In this document: piece after piece, positions 2,473 to 39,536 of the stretch
Layout: every line of letters starts with the position of its first letter
How positions within the stretch are numbered: position 1 is the first letter of the stretch
NCBI RefSeq assembly: GCF_001905445.1
Contig: NZ_LIVQ01000011.1
Location: 62,001 to 126,000, forward strand
Source of the DNA: Streptomyces sp. CB00455
GTDB lineage: Bacteria > Actinomycetota > Actinomycetes > Streptomycetales > Streptomycetaceae
Reading direction: 5' to 3'
Length of the DNA: 64,000 nucleotides
The notes under the pieces: generated by a model
The model's input: only the letters and a program-made list of their open reading frames with translations
What the model was told of the DNA's origin: nothing
The model's database searches: none
Made by a program: the position numbers and the translations under genes

Positions 2473-3570
2473 ATGCCAGCCAACCCGCATGACGCGCTGC
2501 CGATCCGGCTCAACGTCGACGACAGCGATTCGCCGTCGGATGTCGTCGACGCGCTGTTCCTCGGCCGGTTCGCGTCCGGCGAGCAGCCGTTCTCGCACAG
2601 CGTGTCGATCGACCGGGTCAAGCCTGGGATGAGCCTGCTGCCGCCCGGAGCCGCCGTGTTGCGCTCTGCGCGCGACAGCGACCGCAGCGCCACCCTCGCC
2701 GAGGGCGAGGGGTGGACGGTGCTGGTCTCCCGCTGGAGCCGGGGCGCGGACGTCACCGTGACGGCGATCAGCGACGAACTCGCCGCCGGGGTGCTGGGCG
2801 AGGCCACGGAGGGCGCGCAGGACGAGCCCGAACCGCAGCCGGAGAACGTCACGATGGGTTTCTGGTACGTCTCGCCGCGCCGCGGGCCGTACCGGACGAC
2901 GCGCCAGATCGCGGCGGGCACCTGGCCCGAGGTGCGGGCCAACTACACCGCGCCGGTGGCCGCGGCGATGGACCGGCTGATGAAGGTGACCCCGGAGGAC
3001 ATCGCGGGGCGGCTGCTCCTGCTGCACGGTCCGCCGGGCACGGGCAAGACCTCCGCCCTGCGCACCCTGGCCCGGTCCTGGCGGGACTGGTGCCAGGTGG
3101 ACTGCGTCCTGGACCCGGAGCGGCTGTTCAACGACGTGGGCTACTTGATGGACATCGCGATCGGTGAGGAGGAGGGCACGGCGAAGGGGCGCTGGCGGCT
3201 GCTGCTGCTGGAGGACTGCGATGAGCTGATCCGCGGCGAGGCGCGTCACACGGCGGGCCAGGCGCTGTCACGGCTCCTCAACCTGACGGACGGGCTGCTG
3301 GGGCAGGGTCGCAACGTGCTGGTGGGGGTCACGACGAACGAGGACCTGGAACGGCTCCACCCGGCGGTGGTCAGGCCGGGGCGCTGCCTGGCCCGCATCG
3401 AGGTCGGGCGGCTGACGCACGGGGAGGCGGTGGACTGGCTGGGCACGGACGAGGGCGTCTCCCGCGAGGGGGCCAGCCTGGCCGAACTCTTCGCCCTGCG
3501 GCGGGGCACGGGGCCGGCGGCGGTCCTGCCGCTGCAGCCGCACTCGGCGGATGCGGGCCTTTACCTCTGA
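2473..3570 (+). CDS. AAA ATPase, DUF5925 family (365 aa)
   Basis: Single-domain AAA ATPase of unknown client. Walker A is GPPGTGKTS at residues 186-194, Walker B LLLLEDCDEL starts near residue 243, and the TTNEDLERL plus VVRPGR segment near residues 290-306 carries sensor-1 and the arginine-finger type RPGR motif of Cdc48/FtsH-like AAA proteins. The N-terminal 170 residues (start PANPHDALPIRLNVDDSDSP) correspond to what I know as the DUF5925 region and have no recognisable fold. I prefer the ATG at 2473 over 2437 and 2464 because related proteins begin at this point. No ribosome site is visible. It stands alone, divergent from the lipase. Confidence 0.8.
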   Translation: MPANPHDALPIRLNVDDSDSPSDVVDALFLGRFASGEQPFSHSVSIDRVKPGMSLLPPGAAVLRSARDSDRSATLAEGEGWTVLVSRWSRGADVTVTAISDELAAGVLGEATEGAQDEPEPQPENVTMGFWYVSPRRGPYRTTRQIAAGTWPEVRANYTAPVAAAMDRLMKVTPEDIAGRLLLLHGPPGTGKTSALRTLARSWRDWCQVDCVLDPERLFNDVGYLMDIAIGEEEGTAKGRWRLLLLEDCDELIRGEARHTAGQALSRLLNLTDGLLGQGRNVLVGVTTNEDLERLHPAVVRPGRCLARIEVGRLTHGEAVDWLGTDEGVSREGASLAELFALRRGTGPAAVLPLQPHSADAGLYL

Positions 3571-35846: not shown

Positions 35847-36974
35847 TCAGGCGTCCCAGAGGCTTCCGAAGGCCAGGAGTTCGTCGCGGTACTCGATCCG
35901 CTCCGCCCAGTCGCGGGGCCAGGCGTCCGCGCCGAGGTGGGCTCCGGCGAAGGCGCCCGCCAGGCAGGCGAGGGAGTCGGAGTCGCCCGCCGTGCAGGCG
36001 GCGCGGCGCAGCGCCAGGAGGGGTTCCTCCGGGAAGAGCAGGAAGCACTGCAGGGCGGTGGCGAGGGCTTCCTCCGCGATCCAGCCGTCGCCCGTGGTCA
36101 GGCAGGGGTCGGTCTCCGGGGAGGGGTTGCGCAGGGCGGCCGTCAGCCGGTCCAGGGCGTGGAGGCAGTCGTCCCAGCCCCGCGCGATGAACGACTCCGC
36201 GGAGGCGTCGGACGCCGTCCGCGTCCAGAGGTCGCCGAGCCAGCGCTCGTGGTAGCGGGTGCGGTTCTCCAGCGCGTAGGAGCGCAGCCGCCCGACCAGG
36301 CCCGTCACCTCGGTGCCCTGCGCCAGCAGGTGCACCGCCCGCGCGGTGAGGTCGGAGGCGGCCAGTGCCGTGGGGTGGCCGTGGGTGAGGGCCGACTGCA
36401 GCTGCGCGGCGCCGGCCCGCTCCTCCTCGGTCCAGCCGGGGACCAGCCCGACGGGGACCACCCGCATGTTCGCGCCGCAGCCCTTGGAGCCCGTCTGGCT
36501 GGCATCCCGCCAGTCGCGCTCCGGGTGGTCCAGCAGCCCGCAGGCGACCATGCAGGTCCGGCCGGGGGCGCGGTTGTTCTCCGGGGAGTGGTACCAGTCG
36601 ACGTACTCCTCGCGGACCGGGCGGGCCAGGCGCAGCGGGCCGATCCGGCCGCGCTCCAGTGCCGTCCGTATGCCCCGCGCCAGGGCGAGGGTCATCTGGG
36701 TGTCGTCGGTGACGATCGCCGGGCGGGGCAGCCGCATCTCGCGCCACGGGCCGGTCTTGGCCAGGATCGAGGGGACGTCGCTGAACTCCGTGGGGAAGCC
36801 GAGAGCGTCGCCCAGCGCAAGGCCGGTCATGGCACCCGTCGCGGCCCGCTTCGTCCGGGAGGGTGTCGCGGGCGCCGCCGGCGCCGCCGGCCGCGGCAGC
36901 GAACGCGCCACCGGCTGCGTCGGCGTCTGCGTCGGCGTCGGCGTCGGCGTCGGCGGCGTCTGTGGTGTGGTCAT
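35847..36974 (-). CDS. ADP-ribosylglycohydrolase family protein (375 aa)
   Basis: Hydrolyses ADP-ribosyl bonds in relatives such as DraG and ARH3. Binuclear metal ligands are TDDT (89-92) and the C-terminal GDSDSLACLAGAFAG near residue 328. The family core GAMTGLALGDALG (47-59) is intact. The N-terminal 35 residues are a Pro/Thr-rich repeat ((PT)n). ATG 36974 overlaps the stop of nrtR as ATGA, so it is the fourth gene of the pnuC-nadR-nrtR operon. It links NAD salvage with recovery of ADP-ribose; the physiological substrate is not shown. Confidence 0.9.
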   Translation of the reverse strand: MTTPQTPPTPTPTPTQTPTQPVARSLPRPAAPAAPATPSRTKRAATGAMTGLALGDALGFPTEFSDVPSILAKTGPWREMRLPRPAIVTDDTQMTLALARGIRTALERGRIGPLRLARPVREEYVDWYHSPENNRAPGRTCMVACGLLDHPERDWRDASQTGSKGCGANMRVVPVGLVPGWTEEERAGAAQLQSALTHGHPTALAASDLTARAVHLLAQGTEVTGLVGRLRSYALENRTRYHERWLGDLWTRTASDASAESFIARGWDDCLHALDRLTAALRNPSPETDPCLTTGDGWIAEEALATALQCFLLFPEEPLLALRRAACTAGDSDSLACLAGAFAGAHLGADAWPRDWAERIEYRDELLAFGSLWDA

Positions 36975-37714
36975 CGGGCGCGTCCTTCCGAGGGGCGGAG
37001 CAGGGGCGGGTGCAGGGCGGTCGCCGGGCCGGGCCGGTACAGCGCGGCCGGTTTGCCGCGCCCTCCGGTCAGCCGGGCGGCTCCGGGGACGGCCTCGACG
37101 AAGCCGGGCGAAGCCAGGACCTTGCGGCGGAAGTTGGGGCGGTCCAGGCCGGTGTCCCAGACGGTCTCGTACACGGCCTGGAGCTCGCCGAGCGTGAACT
37201 CGGGCGGGCAGAAGGCCGTGGCCAGGCAGGTGTATTCGAGTTTCGAGCCGATCCGCTCCCGTGCGTCCGCCAGGATCGCCGTGTGGTCGAAAGCCAGGTC
37301 CCGGGCCGATCCCACCGGCATCCAGCGGGCGTGGGCCGCGTCGCCGCCGCCGTGTTCGGCCGGCTCCGGCATGTCCGGCACCAGCGCCGTGAAGGCCACC
37401 GACACCACCCGCATCCGCGGATCGCGGCCGGGCTCGCTGTAGGTGCGCAGCTGTTCCAGGTGCAGGGCCGCCACCACGCCCGCCGGCAGGCCCGTCTCTT
37501 CGGCCAGTTCGCGGCGGGCGGCCGCCTCCGCGGACTCCCGGGGCAGGACGAAGCCGCCTGGCAGTGCCCAGGCGCCGGCGAAGGGCTCCTGCCCGCGCCG
37601 GATCAGCAGCACGTGGAGCTGCCCGCCCCGCACGGTGAACACCGCGAGGTCGACGGTCACCGCGAACGGCTCGAAGGCGTACGGGTCGTAGCCCGCGGGG
37701 AGCGCGGCGCTCAT
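36971..37714 (-). CDS. nrtR: NrtR-type Nudix/winged-helix regulator (247 aa)
   Basis: NrtR proteins sense ADP-ribose with a Nudix domain and bind a palindromic operator through a C-terminal wHTH to control NAD genes. The Nudix box fits GX5EX7REUXEEXGU exactly at residues 54-76, so hydrolysis may be retained. The wHTH is at about 165-215 (CPPEFTLGELQAVYETVW, then RPNFRRKVLAS). The operon position and the palindrome ATAGTCACTATGACTAT on the operon promoter support the assignment. ATG 37714 overlaps the nadR stop. The last 25 residues are basic. Confidence 0.85.
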   Translation of the reverse strand: MSAALPAGYDPYAFEPFAVTVDLAVFTVRGGQLHVLLIRRGQEPFAGAWALPGGFVLPRESAEAAARRELAEETGLPAGVVAALHLEQLRTYSEPGRDPRMRVVSVAFTALVPDMPEPAEHGGGDAAHARWMPVGSARDLAFDHTAILADARERIGSKLEYTCLATAFCPPEFTLGELQAVYETVWDTGLDRPNFRRKVLASPGFVEAVPGAARLTGGRGKPAALYRPGPATALHPPLLRPSEGRAR

Positions 37715-38790
37715 CGGGTCTCCGGCAGGGGGTCGGCGAAGTCCCAGCCCTCGGCGAGCAGTGCGTCGACCGCGGCCACGGCTGCCGCGAGCCGTTCCTC
37801 ACGGCTGCCCCGTACGACGAGGAAACGCCGTCCGGTGCGCTCCAGTTCCTCCCGGAACCGCCCGGTCATCCACGGCCGCAGGTGCGGCCCGTCCCGCAGG
37901 CCGTCGTCCTCGAAGGGCACGTCCGCGTCGTCCGTCAGCAGGTACAGGTGGCGGGGCGTGAGTGCGGCGGTCTTCTCGACCTCCTCGCTGCGGCCGCCCG
38001 TGTACCGCTCGTGCCAGATGCCGGTGGCGAAGGAGTCGGTGTCGCAGACGAGCACCGGCGAGCCCCGCCGGGCCGCCCGCTCCTCCTCCGCGTCCTGGCG
38101 CCGTGCGATGACCGGGAACTCGTGGGAGGCGAAGGAGATGTCCGCCCAGGTGGCCGCAGGGTCCGCGGCCCGGGCCGCCGCCAGTTTCTCCTCGCTGTAC
38201 CGGCGCCCGTACTCGGCGACCCATCGCGTCCCCGCCCAGACCCCGCCGCGCTGGCGGTAGTGCGCGGCCAGCGCCCGCGACAGCGTGGTGGTGCCCGTGG
38301 ACTCGGCGCCGAGGACGACGACCCGGCGGGTCAGGGCGGCGCGTACGGCGGGTCCGAGGAAGTCCCAGCAGGCGACGGGATCGGCCCGCACGGCCGTGCC
38401 CGACACCGGGAAGCGGCTCCGGCCGGGGTCCACGCAGACCTCCTCGGCGCCGAACCGCCGGGCGAGTTCGGCTCCGTACGCCTCCGAGGTGAAGACGGCG
38501 TCCACCGGTCCGGCGACCGCCTCCCGGAAGACCGCCATGTGGGCCTCCCAGACCGCCGGGTCGTTCAGGTCGACGGGGATGTCGTCCACGGCGCCGACGA
38601 CCTCGGCGCCCGGGTGGGCCTCCCGCATCCAGGCGACCCGGTCGGCGAGCGGAACGGATTCGACGGAGGCCGCGCAGACCAGCACGGTCAGCCGCTCGCA
38701 CCGCTCCTGGGCGGTGCGCACCAGGTGGTGGTGGCCGGCGTGCGGCGGATAGAACTTGCCGAGCACCAGCCCGTGGCCGAAGCGCCTCAC
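37711..38790 (-). CDS. nadR: NadR-like bifunctional NMN adenylyltransferase / ribosylnicotinamide kinase (359 aa)
   Basis: Converts imported nicotinamide riboside to NMN and NAD. The N-terminal NMNAT domain has GKFYPPHAGH (11-20) and the SGTAVRADP segment near residue 130. The C-terminal kinase domain (from about 156) has the P-loop GAESTGTTTL (161-170), in which the usual Lys is replaced by Thr, then a Walker-B-like VLVCDTD. No DNA-binding N-terminus as in enteric NadR is present, which fits regulation by NrtR instead. GTG 38790 overlaps the pnuC stop, and the stop overlaps nrtR. Confidence 0.88.
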   Translation of the reverse strand: MRRFGHGLVLGKFYPPHAGHHHLVRTAQERCERLTVLVCAASVESVPLADRVAWMREAHPGAEVVGAVDDIPVDLNDPAVWEAHMAVFREAVAGPVDAVFTSEAYGAELARRFGAEEVCVDPGRSRFPVSGTAVRADPVACWDFLGPAVRAALTRRVVVLGAESTGTTTLSRALAAHYRQRGGVWAGTRWVAEYGRRYSEEKLAAARAADPAATWADISFASHEFPVIARRQDAEEERAARRGSPVLVCDTDSFATGIWHERYTGGRSEEVEKTAALTPRHLYLLTDDADVPFEDDGLRDGPHLRPWMTGRFREELERTGRRFLVVRGSREERLAAAVAAVDALLAEGWDFADPLPETR

Positions 38791-39395
38791 GCGGCGGCCC
38801 CCAGGGCCGTACGGGCGCCCCGCGCCGGCAGCGTCCGCCGCCAGCCGACGAGGCCGGCCACGCACAGGGCGAGGAAGCCGAGGTAGAGGAGGGAGGTCAG
38901 GTACAGGCTCTTGTAGGCGTAGAGGGGGATGTAGATCAGGTCGGCGGCGATCCACAGCCACCAGGACTCGACGAGCTTGCGGCACTGGCCGTAGGTGGCC
39001 GCGAGGGAGAGGCAGGTGGTGACCGCGTCCCAGAAGGGGACGGTGGAGTCGGTGGCGCGGTCGAGGAGCAGGGTCAGGGCGGCCACCCCCACCGCCCCCG
39101 CCACGGCCAGCCAGACCCATTCGGCGCGCGTGGTGCGGCGCACCGGCAGGGCCCGGGCGGTTCCTGGTCCACCCCCGTGGGTCCAGGACCACCAGCCGTA
39201 CGCGGCGAGGGCGATGAAGACGATCTGCAGCCCGGCATCGGCGTAAAGGCCGGCCTGGGCGAAGAGCGCGATGAAGAAGACGTTGTTGGCGATCCCGATC
39301 GGCCAGTTGGCGACGTGCTGCCGTGCGACCAGCCAGACGCACACGGCGCCGGTGGCGAACCCGAGCGCTTCGGTCCAGCTCAAGGTCCAGTTCAT
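38787..39395 (-). CDS. pnuC: PnuC nicotinamide riboside transporter (202 aa)
   Basis: Facilitator that takes up nicotinamide riboside, trapped by phosphorylation in the cytoplasm. About seven membrane helices; the conserved segments are NWPIGIANNVFFI near residue 30, LQIVFIALAAYGWW, and ESWWLWIAADLIYIPLYAYK near residue 145. ATG 39395 is 8 nt after GGGAGGGG. It is the first gene of the operon, and the NrtR operator overlaps its -10 box. Confidence 0.92.
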   Translation of the reverse strand: MNWTLSWTEALGFATGAVCVWLVARQHVANWPIGIANNVFFIALFAQAGLYADAGLQIVFIALAAYGWWSWTHGGGPGTARALPVRRTTRAEWVWLAVAGAVGVAALTLLLDRATDSTVPFWDAVTTCLSLAATYGQCRKLVESWWLWIAADLIYIPLYAYKSLYLTSLLYLGFLALCVAGLVGWRRTLPARGARTALGAAA

Positions 39396-39414: not shown

Positions 39415-39431
39415 ATAGTCACTATGACTAT
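39415..39431. promoter_or_regulatory. NrtR-type operator ATAGTCACTATGACTAT
   Basis: Perfect 7-bp half-sites ATAGTCA and TGACTAT with centre CTA. It overlaps the -10 box of the pnuC promoter, 20 bp before the pnuC ATG, so binding should block transcription. The sequence fits the NrtR box type I know from other bacteria. Confidence 0.8.
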
Positions 39432-39455
39432 AAACAGCGGAAGGGGTCGAGGCAA
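39427..39455 (-). promoter_or_regulatory. pnuC operon promoter TTGCCT-N17-TATAGT
   Basis: On the minus strand TTGCCT (39450-39455) and TATAGT (39427-39432) are separated by exactly 17 bp. The -10 shares bases with the operator. Confidence 0.7.
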
Positions 39456-39500
39456 GGGAGCCGGGGCAAGGGAGCCGAGGCAAGGGAGCCGGGCAAGGGA
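39453..39500. repeat. CAAGGGAGCCGGGG-like tandem units
   Basis: Four related units of 13-15 bp (CAAGGGAGCCGGGG, CAAGGGAGCCGAGG, CAAGGGAGCCGGG, CAAGGGAGA) between the pnuC promoter and the rluB terminator. Confidence 0.6.
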
Positions 39501-39536
39501 GAAGCCCGCGGCGCCGGTGGGCGCTGCGGGCTTCTC
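39499..39536 (-). terminator. 17-bp hairpin after rluB
   Basis: 39499-39515 pairs with 39520-39536 (one G-U or mismatch; loop GGTG). It lies 27 bp after the rluB stop. Confidence 0.75.

Follow-up and report, generated by a model that had tools for sequence, protein, structure and literature searches.

A perfect palindrome, ATAGTCACTATGACTAT, lies upstream of pnuC in the genome of Streptomyces sp. CB00455, and the question raised by this locus is which regulator reads it, and to what effect. Based on the comparison of sequences, the palindrome is very probably the operator of an NrtR protein, NrtR-A, encoded by the third gene of the operon that it precedes, in which case the operon would be an autoregulated one for NAD salvage. 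The window, i.e. the whole stretch of 64,000 nucleotides that was analysed, contains the following features of relevance to this question:

39415 to 39431, no strand assigned: predicted NrtR operator ATAGTCACTATGACTAT, singled out by its uniqueness in window and genome and by being kept before the operon in relatives.
39427 to 39455, minus strand: promoter TTGCCT-N17-TATAGT from the promoter scan, its -10 box common to the palindrome.
38787 to 39395, minus strand: pnuC, nicotinamide riboside/NMN transporter family (PF04973, 1.2e-57).
37711 to 38790, minus strand: nadR, NMN adenylyltransferase plus ribosylnicotinamide kinase type (PF13521, 8.9e-30; PF01467, 2.5e-4).
36971 to 37714, minus strand: nrtR (NrtR-A), Nudix and NrtR winged-helix domains (PF00293, 1.5e-23; PF21906, 3.2e-14).
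37487 to 37555, minus strand: intact Nudix box of NrtR-A, residues 54-76 (GX5EX7REUXEEXG).
37118 to 37144, minus strand: DRPNFRRKV, predicted DNA-recognition stretch of NrtR-A, residues 191-199, which covaries with the operator and was assigned by spacing to the DNA-binding residues of MsNrtR, the NrtR of Mycobacterium smegmatis.
35847 to 36974, minus strand: ADP-ribosylglycohydrolase, ARH/DraG family (PF03747, ADP_ribosyl_GH, 1.2e-61, 209.4 bits).

The palindrome was the sole match at up to three mismatches across the 64-kb window, and when the window was shuffled a match appeared in 1 of 100 shuffles (about 0.01 expected). In a scan of the 7.56-Mb genome it was the single exact match and the single place with fewer than three mismatches; the remaining 24 forward places had three mismatches each, and the reversed control pattern gave 10. 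With respect to a larger regulon, this whole-genome scan gave no second site below three mismatches. A promoter scan of the minus strand found TTGCCT-N17-TATAGT from 39455 to 39427 (one match vs a shuffle mean of 0.0). The first five bases of the palindrome on the minus strand are the last five bases of TATAGT, and one arm of the palindrome is therefore part of the -10 box. From the palindrome to the pnuC start codon (ATG at 39395) the gap is 19 bp. Both the palindrome on the pnuC promoter and the promoter overlapping it had been proposed in an earlier, sequence-only reading, and both were recovered exactly. Just upstream of the promoter, at 39450-39502, about four head-to-tail copies of a GGCAAGGGAGCC-like unit can be discerned by eye; each copy contains CTTGCC on the minus strand, and the last one contains the -35 box TTGCCT.

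The gene order is pnuC-nadR-nrtR-ADP-ribosylglycohydrolase, with each gene overlapping the next by 4 bp. The sequence-only reading had missed the glycohydrolase as well as a paralogue of NrtR that is treated below. The nadR gene begins with GTG, shares 4 bp with the end of pnuC, belongs to the Pfam families AAA_28 and CTP_transf_like, and scored 1.4e-52 against TIGR01526, which is under the cut-off of that model. The third gene had been taken to encode a Nudix/winged-helix protein with an intact Nudix box, and its product indeed scored above the Pfam cut-offs for NUDIX (PF00293, 83.7 bits, cut-off 21.1) and NrtR_WHD (PF21906, 53.3 bits, cut-off 27), with the box at residues 54-76. It has the domain order of the NrtR family, an N-terminal Nudix domain and a C-terminal NrtR winged helix, and resembles the S. 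oneidensis NrtR structures 3gz5 and 3gz6 (2.1e-30). The best NCBIfam model was the equivalog NF050029 (ADPR responsive repressor; E 5.4e-38, 130.8 bits), and since its cut-off of 400 was not reached, identical function is not claimed. The Nudix signature, searched as GX5EX7REUXEEXG with the last hydrophobic position left out of the pattern, was found in 77 of 77 distinct NrtR-A orthologues at ≥66% identity. It is intact also in 16 of the 19 other NrtRs listed, and hence not peculiar to NrtR-A. The glycohydrolase, which shares its 4-bp overlap with nrtR, matched DraG (2woe, 2.1e-15) and scored under the cut-offs of TIGR02662 and NF041672. As to its metal-binding motifs, TDDT is present, and the second reads DSDS where DraG has DADT in the alignment.

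Conservation in Streptomyces relatives had been set as a test of the palindrome, and it was observed. At up to one mismatch the palindrome occurred in 83 of 150 congeneric genomes, and the reversed control in 3. A close orthologue of NrtR-A (E <= 1.2e-88) was found by protein search in 99 of the 150 (this number and the control-genome counts were read off the result tables). Both palindrome and NrtR-A were present in 80 genomes, NrtR-A only in 19, the palindrome only in 3, and neither in 48 (Fisher test, p 5.7e-20, relatedness ignored). Sixteen of the 19 genomes with NrtR-A and no site at up to one mismatch carry a palindrome with two or three mismatches no more than about 210 bp upstream of the operon; in another (L067) the locus is cut by the contig end, and in the last two (L071 and L078) only a degenerate remnant of the palindrome is seen. 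In two of the three genomes with the palindrome only (G046 and G119) the neighbouring nrtR is diverged or has a broken frame, and in the third (G060) the palindrome is present with no such nrtR beside it.

A named collection of loci contributed at least 72 loci among the matches listed, some of them from genomes already in the set of 150, and it is therefore not an independent sample. L246-L249 were dropped (below 65% identity or no match), which left 68 loci among the matches listed; 57 of these have, in the 330 bp upstream of pnuC or nrtR, a site at up to one mismatch, seven have one with two mismatches, one has one with three, and three are without a site in 330 bp, their sites at up to one mismatch being located 841, 1,275 and 1,253 bp before nrtR. 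Among 65 aligned sites of relatives, picked because they match the palindrome, the preceding TTT hardly varies, and a TTG is found 17-18 bp before the -10 box. The operon commonly takes one of two layouts, either pnuC-nadR-nrtR-ARH or nrtR-ARH, and in the second the palindrome immediately precedes nrtR. Among the mapped loci of the latter layout, 7 of 26 carry a second palindrome 15-16 bp on, with one half-site common to both (L070, L072, L077, L082, L083, L102 and L103). In one further locus (L065 of G025, 2859-3066) the operator is followed by a pnuC-like start and nadR begins about 207 bp later; tblastn gave no pnuC match there, and pnuC may be lost.

At class level, a match with at most one mismatch was found in 29 of 296 genomes. 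Within the genus the palindrome was present in 17 of 28 genomes of this set (reversed control 0), and outside the genus in 12 of 268, where the reversed control also gave 12, i.e. a background frequency. Since the raw frequency outside the genus equals that of the control, genomic position was used instead. Seven of the 12 non-genus places were opened, and three of them are on NAD genes with nrtR: in G192 and G287 the palindrome precedes a nicotinate phosphoribosyltransferase gene (pncB) with nrtR about 1.9 kb downstream, and in G151 it heads nrtR-nadA. The other four (G283, G356, G264 and G223) have no nrtR beside the palindrome, and for the remaining five of the 12 no nrtR is listed within their 3-kb loci. 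A further genome, G255, which was found via its nrtR, has GTAGTCACCCTGACTAC before pnuC-nadR-nrtR. As judged from these arrangements (nrtR-ARH, pncB...nrtR and nrtR-nadA), the palindrome stays with nrtR when other operon genes change. A palindromic operator before genes of NAD metabolism, kept together with its regulator, is a hallmark of the NrtR family, and this is what was found.

The reading of the palindrome as a predicted operator is thus strongly supported by its co-occurrence with nrtR, its fixed place in the promoter, the NAD genes that it precedes in other genera, and a covariation of recognition helix and half-site described below. The points against are the remnants in L071 and L078, G060, an exceptional locus (L081) discussed with the helices, the background frequency outside the genus, and the four of seven opened places without nrtR. 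On its own, the single site in the window does not amount to the direct evidence of NrtR control in the genus for which it had been taken.

The best explanation as a whole, in which NrtR-A occupies the operator, represses the operon including nrtR and is relieved by a ligand, we consider likely. The predicted operator, the promoter overlap, the gene order and the link between operator and nrtR stand on comparison; repression, the ligand, the Nudix and glycohydrolase activities and the resetting of the signal we infer. An NrtR dimer would bind the two ATAGTCA half-sites, covering the -10 box and probably the transcription start, and would keep RNA polymerase off pnuC-nadR-nrtR-ARH. As the palindrome extends into the -10 box, a dimer bound to it should block the transcription of every gene of the operon, including that of the repressor. 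Upon consumption of NAD the repressor would be loosened by a ligand that binds the Nudix domain, ADP-ribose being the most likely candidate by analogy with family members, and PnuC and NadR would then take up nicotinamide riboside and lead it to NAD. The glycohydrolase could free ADP-ribose from modified targets and thus feed the signal. Since the Nudix box is intact in all 77 distinct orthologues, NrtR-A may hydrolyse ADP-ribose; such activity, if present, could remove the signal and return the switch to its starting state.

A live, though less likely, alternative is that the operator and repressor are the same and that NAD, or another NAD metabolite, is a co-repressor in place of ADP-ribose as inducer. 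NdnR of Corynebacterium glutamicum, an actinobacterial NrtR, is said to respond to NAD in the available part of the AraR paper (PMC4666351); the same part, however, reports that in S. oneidensis and Synechocystis ADP-ribose causes NrtR to dissociate from DNA, and excerpts of two other papers report such release in M. smegmatis, at 50 mM (PMC6800001), and in S. sobrinus (PMC12735969). The presence of an ADP-ribosylglycohydrolase gene in the same operon likewise argues against a co-repressor. The sequence-only reading had proposed an autoregulated NAD-salvage circuit with relief by ADP-ribose; its operator and operon were upheld by comparison, and in naming ADP-ribose, which is carried over from the family and faces the NAD response of NdnR, it overreached.

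Occupation of the palindrome by NrtR-A, as preferred here, has also to be weighed against its paralogue. NrtR-B is about 62% identical to NrtR-A, its operator differs from that of NrtR-A by one base per half-site (base 3), and in two genomes (G127 and G109) an ATAGTC-type site is found among ATCGTC-type sites, as described below, so NrtR-B, alone or together with NrtR-A, might occupy the palindrome. However, the best match was at the NrtR-B level (2e-69 to 5e-76) in 47 of the 51 genomes without NrtR-A, yet the palindrome is present in only 3 of the 51, twice adjoining a diverged or broken nrtR. Moreover, NrtR-B has an operator of its own, ATCGTC-N5-GACGA, which immediately precedes the NrtR-B gene in 6 of the 7 Streptomyces genomes examined. 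From this co-occurrence and the separate ATCGTC operator we judge it quite improbable that NrtR-B reads the palindrome.

The difference between the two operators goes along with a difference between the proteins. The recognition helix is NFRRKV in NrtR-A and in the proteins of G192, G287 and G255, NFRRQI in the distant protein of G151, and NFHRKV in NrtR-B. Base 3 of the half-site varies with the type of NrtR: ATAGTC in the type of the window, ATCGTC in the paralogue, and TGGTC or TTGTC in others. This was surveyed in 60 additional NrtR loci, almost all of them from other families of actinobacteria, and 14 earlier ones (74 regions), with a strict site defined as TNGTC-N5-GACN'A within 350 bp before nrtR. 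The 74 regions contain 42 strict sites (shuffle mean 0.24, maximum 1 in 50 shuffles). Because the idea of a helix code arose from loci in this count, it was repeated on the 60 new loci alone, which gave 35 strict sites (shuffle mean 0.22, maximum 2 in 100 shuffles). None of the 60 has the helix type of the window, and the ATAGTC leg of the code therefore rests on the earlier loci.

Proteins of the PRNFHR class (n=26) have C at base 3 in 21 strict sites and in one with a mismatch. T is found in the PRNFYR class (4 of 4; one strict, three with a mismatch), in the single PRNFSR locus (with a mismatch) and in the single PGNFQR locus, and G in 8 of 10 loci of the PSNFRR class (one strict, seven with a mismatch). 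The shuffle expectation for sites with at most one mismatch is 0.5 in the 10 PSNFRR, 0.2 in the 4 PRNFYR and 1.7 in the 26 PRNFHR regions. For the PPNFRR type (10 loci) there was no strict TNGTC site either within 350 bp or in the whole fetched stretch, and one mismatched G site; one AANFRR protein has both C and G sites, with a mismatch. The 11 loci of the AANFHR, AGNFHR and APNFHR types have no TNGTC site within 350 bp, and these types therefore need another kind of operator, despite the common H. Stretches like GTTCTCA...TGAGAA, perhaps another operator type, were seen before nrtR in six loci with AxNFHR helices (L149, L168, L170, L171, L337 and L339).

In a tree of 100 NrtR proteins the operator types fall largely into separate clades (19 changes vs 52 for shuffled labels), so that the correlation of helix and operator represents about four clades rather than dozens of events. 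For L158, L159, L036, L037, L046, L048, L059, L063, L065, L099 and L147 the operator labels were assigned manually and not by the scan, on the basis of sites preceding pnuC or pncB; the site of L065 has two mismatches and that of L147 differs in its outer bases. The G151 protein is on a long branch and its placement is unsure. An exception to the correlation is L081, from the fragmented genome of G130, in which an operator with two mismatches accompanies an NrtR-B-type helix. Its NrtR is NrtR-A-like in the first part and NrtR-B-like in the helix region, which would point to a chimeric protein or to an error in the assembly.

In NrtR-A, N194 stands between the two variable positions, residues 193 and 196. 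In an alignment by spacing only, D191, P193, N194 and R197 of NrtR-A correspond to D167, T169, N170 and R173 of MsNrtR, all four of which are individually required for binding to DNA according to an excerpt of PMC6800001, and K179 of MsNrtR would fall on a proline of NrtR-A.

Sites of the ATCGTC type also precede an operon for an SPFH and an NAD-kinase-like protein, which is present in 74 of the 150 Streptomyces genomes and had no match in the genome of the window. The NAD-kinase-like protein has weak similarity to NAD kinase 2 (3.8e-6), and it scored under the cut-offs of the NCBIfam NAD kinase models. From 42 loci (L250-L289, L089 and L090) 29 distinct upstream regions were obtained, all with at least one strict site and 23 with two; in 22 of these 23 the two sites are 33-34 bp apart. 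The regions total 52 strict sites (shuffle mean 0.02), of which 50 are ATCGTC-type (ATCGTC-N5-GACGA) and two, those of G127 and G109, ATAGTC-type. In 20 of 70 loci of a wider set a PRNFHR-type nrtR adjoins the SPFH operon, an arrangement seen in other actinobacterial families, and the operon is probably the target of the NrtR-B group. In L253 (G127), L270 (G109) and L250 (G126) the first of the SPFH operators belongs wholly or half to the ATAGTC type, and the second to the ATCGTC type; a cross-wiring between the two paralogues is possible in these genomes.

The least expected result is this apparent split of paralogous operators by one base, seen across about four clades, which suggests that sister NrtR repressors may avoid cross-talk through a difference of one base per half-site. 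A joint reading of all the results is put forward tentatively. Streptomyces and wider actinobacteria would run parallel NrtR circuits insulated by one base per half-site (TNGTC-N5-GACN'A) and set by residues 193 and 196, with ATAGTC going with NFRR of the clade of the window (NAD salvage), ATCGTC with PRNFHR (SPFH/NAD-kinase-like genes), TGGTC with PSNFRR and TTGTC with PRNFYR. The repressor of the window would moreover hydrolyse ADP-ribose and so remove its own inducer, ARH from the same operon would be a source of that inducer, and G127 and G109 would resemble natural cross-wirings.

In two congeners (L088:3998 and L177:4056), one-mismatch ATAGTC-type palindromes are flanked by a MarR gene on one side and a methyltransferase gene on the other, and are possibly the MarR protein's own site. 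That an unrelated regulator, as these two sites might suggest, reads the palindrome of the window, or that the palindrome arose by chance in an AT-rich promoter, is most improbable, as the palindrome stays with nrtR while other operon genes change, and chance is ruled out by the expectation of about 0.01 in the window, the uniqueness in the genome, the conservation and the fixed promoter position.

An NAD-salvage NrtR regulon is a known kind of regulon. Added here are the four-gene operon with its glycohydrolase, the intact Nudix box and evidence for a difference of one base per half-site between the operators of paralogous NrtRs. No Streptomyces NrtR was described in the titles and abstract openings of the literature searched, and an earlier prediction is possible. 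For Streptomyces, the analysis provides a concrete predicted operator through which NrtR would control NAD salvage, and the operon also carries a gene of a family that reverses ADP-ribosylation; if the Nudix site is active, the repressor would also destroy its own signal.

NrtR regulons consist of a Nudix and winged-helix repressor and a palindromic operator on NAD genes and are often autoregulated, and for those of NAD metabolism ADP-ribose is the reported anti-repressor. Regulons of this kind were reportedly described by Rodionov et al. in 2008 and Huang et al. in 2009. The operon of the window resembles them in its Nudix/winged-helix protein and in the palindrome on NAD genes. According to the available part of PMC4666351, NrtRs of NAD metabolism have an impaired Nudix signature, from which NrtR-A differs, its box being intact in 77 of 77 orthologues; an excerpt of PMC12735969, on the other hand, states that Nudix activity may persist in many members. 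MsNrtR is likewise an actinobacterial NrtR with a palindrome on an NAD-gene promoter, and is described in the excerpt of PMC6800001 as an auto-repressor released from DNA by ADP-ribose. It differs, as reported there, in controlling the de novo genes nadABC, in its operator GTTTTCGA-N7-TCGAAAAC, and in a Nudix motif changed at three residues, for which that excerpt reports no hydrolase activity found. SsNrtR of Streptococcus sobrinus also binds a pnuC promoter, reversed by ADP-ribose, but belongs to a Firmicute, has a reversed domain order and a non-catalytic Nudix domain (as reported in the available part of PMC12735969). NdnR/NrtR of Corynebacterium glutamicum is, like NrtR-A, an actinobacterial NrtR encoded in an operon with NAD genes, whereas its operon is nadA-nadC-sufS and the protein is said to respond to NAD (excerpts of PMC2807442 and PMC4666351).
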